Translations under genes and position numbers: made by a program | Part shown: positions 12,788-44,363 of the stretch, one piece after another | Layout: every line of letters starts with the position of its first letter | Position numbering within the stretch: the first letter of the stretch is position 1 | Notes under the pieces: generated by a model | Database searches by the model: none | What the model was told of the DNA's origin: nothing | The model's input: only the letters and a program-made list of their open reading frames with translations | NCBI GenBank assembly: GCA_943356675.1 | Contig: CALRFQ010000007.1 | Location: forward strand, 1-46,416 | DNA length: 46,416 nucleotides | Direction of reading: 5' to 3' | Origin: Candidatus Nomurabacteria bacterium | Lineage (GTDB): Bacteria > Patescibacteriota > Minisyncoccia > Phycocordibacterales > UBA9973

Positions 12788-12861
12788 AAAACTAGTATAC
12801 CTCAAACCTACTGTTTCTGTACACCTTTCGCTTTTTGACTACAAAATACTCAAGGTCTTGC

Positions 12862-43065: not shown

Positions 43066-43198
43066 GGTGCAGGGAATTTCTCGGCTTACCGCCGCAGGTA
43101 CTTTTCTAATTGCAAAGCAATACAGAAAAGTCTTTCGAATCCCTGACGCGAGCAAAGCAGTTTGCTCGCTCGCCCCTCGAAAAACTACGTTTTTCTTG
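43066..43198 (-). mobile_element. tRNA-3'-end-associated palindromic element P (after tRNA-Pro)
   Basis: Contains GCAAACTGCTTTGC, TCGAAAGACTTTTCTGT and AGAAAAGTACCTG shared with element G; ends in a duplicate of the tRNA-Pro 3' end (TCCCTGCACC). Confidence 0.75.
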
Positions 43199-43271
43199 TC
43201 GGGGTGCAGGGATTCGAACCCTGAGTCACCTCTTCCCAAAAGAGGCATGTTAGCCGTTACACCACACCCCG
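43199..43271 (-). tRNA. tRNA-Pro (TGG)
   Basis: CGGGGTGTGGTGTAACGGCTAACATGCCTCTTTTGGGAAGAGGTGACTCAGGGTTCGAATCCCTGCACCCCGA; no encoded CCA. Confidence 0.95.
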
Positions 43272-44162: not shown

Positions 44163-44233
44163 GCGGGATTGGTTTAGTGGTAGAACACGTCCTTGCCAAG
44201 GATGAGACAGGAGTTCGATTCTCCTATCCCGCA
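44163..44233 (+). tRNA. tRNA-Gly (GCC)
   Basis: GCGGGATTGGTTTAGTGGTAGAACACGTCCTTGCCAAGGATGAGACAGGAGTTCGATTCTCCTATCCCGCA; no encoded CCA. Confidence 0.95.
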
Positions 44234-44363
44234 CTCTTTATACATAACCCGTAAGGGATAGGAAGCAAACTGCTTTGCTTCCGTAGGTGAATCGAAAGAC
44301 TTTTCTGTGCTATAAGCCAGAAAAGTACCTGGGTCTGTAAGGGCCGATTCTCCTATCCCGCAC
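44234..44363 (+). mobile_element. tRNA-3'-end-associated palindromic element G (after tRNA-Gly)
   Basis: Bounded by the 19-bp direct repeat CGATTCTCCTATCCCGCAC (44216-44234 and 44345-44363); internal hairpins GGAAGCAAA-CTGC-TTTGCTTCC and ACTTTTCTG...CAGAAAAGT. Confidence 0.85.

Follow-up and report, generated by a model that had tools for sequence, protein, structure and literature searches.

The DNA analysed here (46,416 nt, referred to as the window) is one contig of a genome of 719,351 bases in 25 contigs, which is 98.5% complete and has 39 tRNAs. Downstream of tRNA-Pro(TGG), on the minus strand, lies an element that extends over 43066–43179, starting at about 43179 (Table 1). Its core matches a covariance model of the family (R1) at 43069–43147 with E 8.9e-25, and the direct copy that ends it, TCCCTGCACC, is offset by 137 bp from the tRNA's own copy (43203–43212). 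A second element follows tRNA-Gly(GCC) on the plus strand; its core matches the same model at 44283–44357 (E 2.9e-16), and its antisense T-arm has one mismatch to tRNA-Gly. Both elements contain GCAAACTGCTTTGC (43152–43165, minus; 44265–44278, plus) and AGAAAAGTACCTG (43095–43107, minus; 44319–44331, plus) without any difference. The window also holds a degenerate core that has no tRNA and is probably a relic.

An earlier, sequence-only reading of the tRNA-Pro element had claimed a common core for the two elements, and an inverted arm and a terminal direct copy that match tRNA-Pro, the latter at the 137-bp offset. These claims held, and all of the motifs it listed in the element were confirmed at their positions. 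The tRNA of the other copy is tRNA-Gly(GCC), not tRNA-Gly(TCC). We add that the tRNA-Pro element begins at about 43179, with an imperfect antisense of the acceptor (43172–43178) before the hairpin.

Table 1. Features of the two elements and of the degenerate core in the window.
Feature	Position	Strand	Basis
tRNA-Pro(TGG), target gene with copied 3′ end	43198–43271	−	ARAGORN
A-tract/T-tract hairpin, terminator-like trailer directly 3′ of tRNA-Pro	43179–43197	−	Sequence
Imperfect antisense of tRNA-Pro acceptor 3′ strand, ahead of hairpin	43172–43178	−	Sequence and cross-copy comparison
25-nt hairpin insert, 9-bp stem, CTGC loop, equivalent to tRNA nt 65/66	43146–43170	−	
Antisense T-arm CAGGGATTCGAA, complement of tRNA-Pro nt 65 to 54	43134–43145	−	
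Constant core: AGAC, P2, TACC, P3 with GTA loop, GAGAA	43077–43133	−	Covariance model and covariation
P2 hairpin, tRNA-Pro element	43100–43131	−	
P3 hairpin with GTA loop, tRNA-Pro element	43082–43094	−	
Direct copy TCCCTGCACC, tRNA-Pro T-stem 3′ strand and acceptor start	43066–43075	−	
tRNA-Gly(GCC), target of the second copy	44163–44234	+	ARAGORN
Partial antisense acceptor GGGAT, tRNA-Gly element	44255–44259	+	
25-nt hairpin insert AGGAAGCAAACTGCTTTGCTTCCGT, tRNA-Gly element	44260–44284	+	
Antisense T-arm AGGTGAATCGAA, tRNA-Gly element	44285–44296	+	
Constant core with P2 and P3, tRNA-Gly element	44297–44345	+	Covariance model
Direct copy of tRNA-Gly 3′ end, GATTCTCCTATCCCGCAC	44346–44363	+	
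Degenerate core without tRNA (probable relic), intergenic, just upstream of the guaA ORF	12799–12859	−	Weak model match

A family of elements behind tRNA genes

We read the regions downstream of all 39 tRNAs and observed the same layout behind about half of them. The tRNA, often with a terminator-like A-tract/T-tract hairpin, is followed by the antisense of the acceptor 3′ strand, a hairpin and an antisense T-arm that runs to T54. After T54 come AGAC, P2, TACC or TGTACA, P3 with its GTA loop, and GAGA or GAAA, and the element closes with the T-stem 3′ strand copied in direct orientation, together with more or less of the sequence beyond it. Tandem units were seen behind tRNA-Tyr and tRNA-Ala. 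The covariance model, built from 14 hand-cut cores, found 17 strong places (E < 1e-6) in this genome, every one at a tRNA, and three weaker ones: two are extra units behind Tyr and Leu, and the third is the probable relic upstream of guaA. A 132-base query of the tRNA-Pro element found seven places. The sharing of the element is not due to chance, given these seven places and the 17 strong ones at tRNAs.

Within the same order, the element was present in 104 of 149 genomes, with up to 30 copies in each, and all 24 members of the genus carry it. A phylum-wide sample of 245 genomes gave only four matches, all inside the order, and none outside it. Exact matches to the core patterns in public genomes were mostly from Candidatus Nomurabacteria or Paceibacterota; viral contigs had no exact match to two core patterns, and plasmids had no match. 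Scanning the loci against Rfam 15 (including RtT, tmRNA, riboswitches and ribozymes) yielded nothing on the core, and only the tRNA matches were convincing. We did not find the element described in the open-access literature searched, which was limited to open-licence papers.

Among the fetched loci, 109 of 124 copies had an upstream tRNA on the same strand, at a median distance of 70 nt. Two of the copies without one lie behind tmRNA 3′ ends (L100, L141); tmRNA is a target besides tRNA. One lies behind the 3′ half of a tRNA that is split by a group I intron (L161, 330–597), and several of the remaining copies are behind fragments of tRNA 3′ ends or at contig ends. At another locus (L097), a protein gene is followed by an isolated 3′ fragment of a tRNA with an element behind it (1501–1596). 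A complete tRNA-Asn with its own element (2467–2562) lies about 1 kb further downstream, and the distal copy of the first element matches the acceptor of this tRNA-Asn.

The arms track the adjacent tRNA

For 98 copies, we scored the T-stem and acceptor letters alone against the adjacent tRNA and, as a control, against permuted tRNAs (2000 permutations). The antisense T-stem was perfect in 72 of 98 copies, against a permuted mean of 9.8 and maximum of 21, and the direct T-stem in 74 (12.1 permuted). For the acceptor, the corresponding counts were 38 antisense (1.3 permuted) and 41 direct (1.4 permuted), out of the same 98. These values show that the arms match the adjacent tRNA well above chance, and, as the permutation was done on T-stem and acceptor letters, they rule out chance or generic T-loop similarity as the source of the match. 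The sequence-only reading had proposed a constant core with arms matching whichever tRNA precedes it, which it called hard to explain by chance and which arms that fail to track the adjacent tRNA in other copies would have refuted. Both statements held in the 98 copies, where the arms do track.

At G.U pairs in the tRNA, the arm was complementary to the 3′ strand in 60 cases and identical to the 5′ strand in only two. This is what copying from the 3′ strand as template predicts; arms copied from the 5′ strand are ruled out. A structure maintained by RNA pairing tolerates G.U but not A.C mismatches. Between the arm and the tRNA acceptor we counted 6 G.U and 14 A.C, whereas the stems used for comparison had 46 G.U versus 2 A.C (tRNA acceptor) and 12 versus 1 (P3). 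Without an excess of G.U, RNA pairing seems not to keep the acceptor arms matched; P3 behaves like RNA, and the acceptor arm like copied, decaying sequence. Against copying, mismatches of the arm to the T-stem (9 G.U, 4 A.C) and those in P1 (21 G.U, 8 A.C) lean towards RNA pairing.

The core covaries and the hairpin has a fixed length and position

The core is a covarying, RNA-like structure: 89.7% of cells were paired versus 71.1% when shuffled, and the covariation score was 0.518 versus 0.172, with all slid controls at or below 0.13. Single elements also fold well below shuffled sequences (z −4.5 to −6.5). In 46 copies with clear arms, the insert that separates the antisense acceptor from the antisense T-stem has a length of 25 nt in almost every case and is placed at the junction of tRNA nt 66 and 65. 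All nine pairs of this hairpin are Watson-Crick in 57 of 63 copies, with 47 different stems; the loop is mostly CTGC. The order of antisense acceptor, hairpin, antisense T-stem, core, T-stem and acceptor resembles a shortened tRNA in which the core replaces the T-loop. A possible TAC/GTA pseudoknot between J2/3 and the P3 loop (CAC/GTG in Arg-CCT) was also seen by eye.

Insertion and duplication at orthologous loci

The same tRNA gene can be occupied in one genome of the genus and empty in another. At tRNA-Gly(GCC), the element was found in G000, G014, G018 and G023 and was missing in most other congeners read; a different module is present in G002 and G010. In G014 the flank after the distal copy is the flank that follows the tRNA itself in G007, where the site is empty. 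This clean filled/empty pair, the only one read in detail, shows insertion with duplication of the tRNA 3′ end. In G018, the duplication at this tRNA runs through the trailer to the T-run. At tRNA-Pro(TGG), the locus is occupied in G000, G018, G009 and G007 and empty in G022, G008, G012, G003 and G015, and the arms follow each genome's variant of the T-stem (CAGGG or CCGGG). The sequence after the terminator T-run in G007 is exactly complementary to the tRNA end, which is not so in the empty G008 and G012. An RNase Y tree shows the occupied genomes scattered, which requires either repeated gain or gain with many losses; the tree does not exclude the possibility of one ancestral insertion followed by many losses.

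The left end of the duplicated segment clusters at nt 60–61, with a smaller cluster at nt 57. Its right end varies (T-stem 27, acceptor 12, tRNA end 29, trailer 18), from the T-stem to +35 nt past the tRNA. Behind Tyr and Arg-GCG, 5′-truncated copies occur in series, each followed by a T-stem copy, and P2 is broken in the Gln copy of G005; copies decay after insertion. Solo direct copies of the tRNA 3′ end, with no core between, were seen ~ 50–60 nt downstream of tRNA-Phe (L049) and tRNA-Thr(TGT) (L051), and could be remnants or another type of element. In G021, 32 nt from the 3′ part of tRNA-Pro are directly duplicated ~ 47 nt downstream, also without a core (L270).

Cores that are 97–98% identical can follow different tRNAs and carry unrelated arms, as is the case for Ser-GGA and Tyr in G009. 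The similarity of hairpins and that of cores were uncorrelated, and we rejected movement of core and hairpin as one unit on this ground. Without the correlation, core sharing may in part be ectopic conversion, and hops of whole elements cannot be distinguished from conversion of the core; gene conversion, which the sequence-only reading had named as a possible mechanism, may thus explain some of the sharing.

Neither a reverse transcriptase nor a Y1 transposase seems to be required

A reverse transcriptase had been named beforehand as a candidate agent, to be recognized by a matching distribution. None was found in the genome that carries the window, 21 of 38 element-rich genomes lack one, and its presence was unrelated to copy number (p = 0.99). 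We therefore rejected it as the driver. A Y1 transposase domain was found in 95 of 149 relatives and was weakly associated with element richness (p = 0.004, without phylogenetic control), but it was not detected in 12 of the 38 element-rich genomes, so that a Y1/RAYT transposase does not seem to be a necessary agent. Seven element-rich genomes show neither enzyme.

Origin of the elements

The explanation we favor, with moderate confidence, is that these are short foldback mobile elements of one order of Patescibacteria that target tRNA and tmRNA genes and have their arms templated from the target. The element would carry the structured core (P2, P3) and the hairpin of fixed length, and on insertion beside a tRNA would gain two arms, both copied from that gene. 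The inverted arm would represent the 3′ part of the tRNA from T54 to the 3′ end, often continuing into the terminator, and the direct copy that starts near nt 60 would be the target duplication. For the inverted arm we infer a snap-back synthesis that would begin at the T-run of the terminator, run back across acceptor and T-stem as far as the T-loop (TTCGA), and there switch to the core. This route fits two observations: the trailers are palindromic, and an exact complement follows the T-run. The enzyme is unidentified, and host polymerase and nuclease may suffice; once inserted, elements would decay. Copying of the arms during insertion is itself inferred from sequence alone, namely from near-identical cores with different arms, the Gly and Pro loci and the counts at G.U pairs. 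The targeted, template-copying mechanism suggested by the sequence-only reading is thus supported as the best reading, and the insertion polymorphism was observed; the polymerase and nuclease remain unidentified. Against it, simple snap-back copying does not explain a hairpin fixed at tRNA 65/66, which may point to selection for a tRNA-like fold.

The main rival, which remains possible, is a host cis-acting RNA domain of tRNA transcripts that serves as a folding, processing or read-through switch. The pairing partner of the antisense arm would be either the 3′ half of the tRNA or the downstream copy, and selection on pairing would keep the arms matched. This view gains from the position of the elements on the tRNA strand at a median of 70 nt downstream, the strong covariation of the core, the occurrence throughout an order with as many as 30 copies in a genome, and the folding of single elements far under shuffles. 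The hairpin also sits exactly at the acceptor/T boundary, so the element would mimic an acceptor/T minihelix. However, within the genus most orthologous tRNA-Gly loci lack the element, as do about half of the tRNA-Pro loci, it often lies behind a terminator-like hairpin, and mismatches in the acceptor arm show no G.U bias. Broken and 5′-truncated copies are common, and a relic exists without a tRNA.

Two other rivals fare worse. Without any dedicated mobility, replication slippage or template switching at palindromes could duplicate tRNA 3′ ends while ectopic gene conversion spreads the core. The tandem units of 123 and 134 bp, the uncorrelated histories of core and hairpin and the palindromic terminators, which are natural sites of template switching, fit this account, and it requires neither candidate enzyme. 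We consider it unlikely, as it leaves unexplained how a full core and a 25-nt hairpin first came to an empty tRNA, the fixed position of the hairpin and the near-total restriction to tRNA and tmRNA ends. Still harder to sustain is the view that an integrase targeting tRNAs (attB being the tRNA 3′ end) mobilizes a mini-element in trans and leaves att-like direct repeats. Direct copies of tRNA 3′ ends do flank the core, and tandem units occur, but the right ends of the copies vary from the T-stem to past the tRNA, unlike a fixed core site. Nor does an integrase explain the inverted arms or one core behind many tRNAs, and no match was seen in plasmids or, for exact copies of two core patterns, in viral contigs.

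Comparison with known systems

Integrative elements and genomic islands with tyrosine integrase att sites likewise target the 3′ part of tRNAs and leave a direct copy downstream. The elements described here differ in being ~ 100–150 bp long and gene-free, with copies of variable length, inverted arms and one core behind dozens of tRNAs. A direct repeat of the tRNA 3′ end around the insertion, as tRNA-site integration would leave, is present (G014 versus the empty G007; G018), whereas a fixed crossover with a fixed repeat length is not, as right ends spread over the T-stem, acceptor, tRNA end and trailer. Casposons, which use Cas1 integrases at tRNA genes, duplicate the tRNA 3′ end on insertion; they are large and gene-carrying with duplications of fixed size, unlike the present elements. 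The rtT repeats of E. coli (tyrT locus) are likewise arranged in tandem downstream of a tRNA, and every unit includes part of the tRNA 3′ end. They are confined to one locus and one tRNA, are not known to have an inverted arm, and RtT did not match our elements in Rfam.

REP/BIME palindromes, associated with RAYT (Y1) transposases, are also small, structured, gene-free intergenic repeats, but their arms do not copy the neighbor, and Y1 was undetected in the 12 element-rich genomes noted above. Like tRNA-derived SINEs and target-primed retroelements, the elements have tRNA-like parts, variable target duplication and 5′-truncated copies. The last two features meet what target priming would predict; a reverse transcriptase in the carriers, which it would also predict, was not found in this genome and is lacking in 21 of the 38 element-rich genomes, and the tRNA part comes from the target rather than from a source gene.

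A bolder reading, which in our judgment falls just short of being probable, is that these elements form a new class of mobile element. It would insert next to tRNA and tmRNA genes and produce its own arms through snap-back copying, from the terminator, of the 3′ part of each target, so that one core could settle behind nearly every tRNA and still be matched. To our knowledge, no described bacterial element re-templates its ends in this way. If true, it would be a natural case of target-templated DNA synthesis, in reduced and mostly uncultured bacteria and at their most conserved genes. It would also constitute a new class of tRNA-associated structured RNA, with as many as 30 copies in a genome and no Rfam family, and explain why the sequences 3′ of tRNA genes look odd in these lineages.

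A second structured module, GCCGGAGTGCGAC..GGGGTCGCGAGC..TTGTGACC, was seen near tRNAs at L055 (behind Lys-CTT and Leu-TAA), L061 (behind Glu-CTC), L151, L177, L184 and L188. The copies at L055 and L061 have no Rfam match, and the module is sometimes joined to pieces of the first family.
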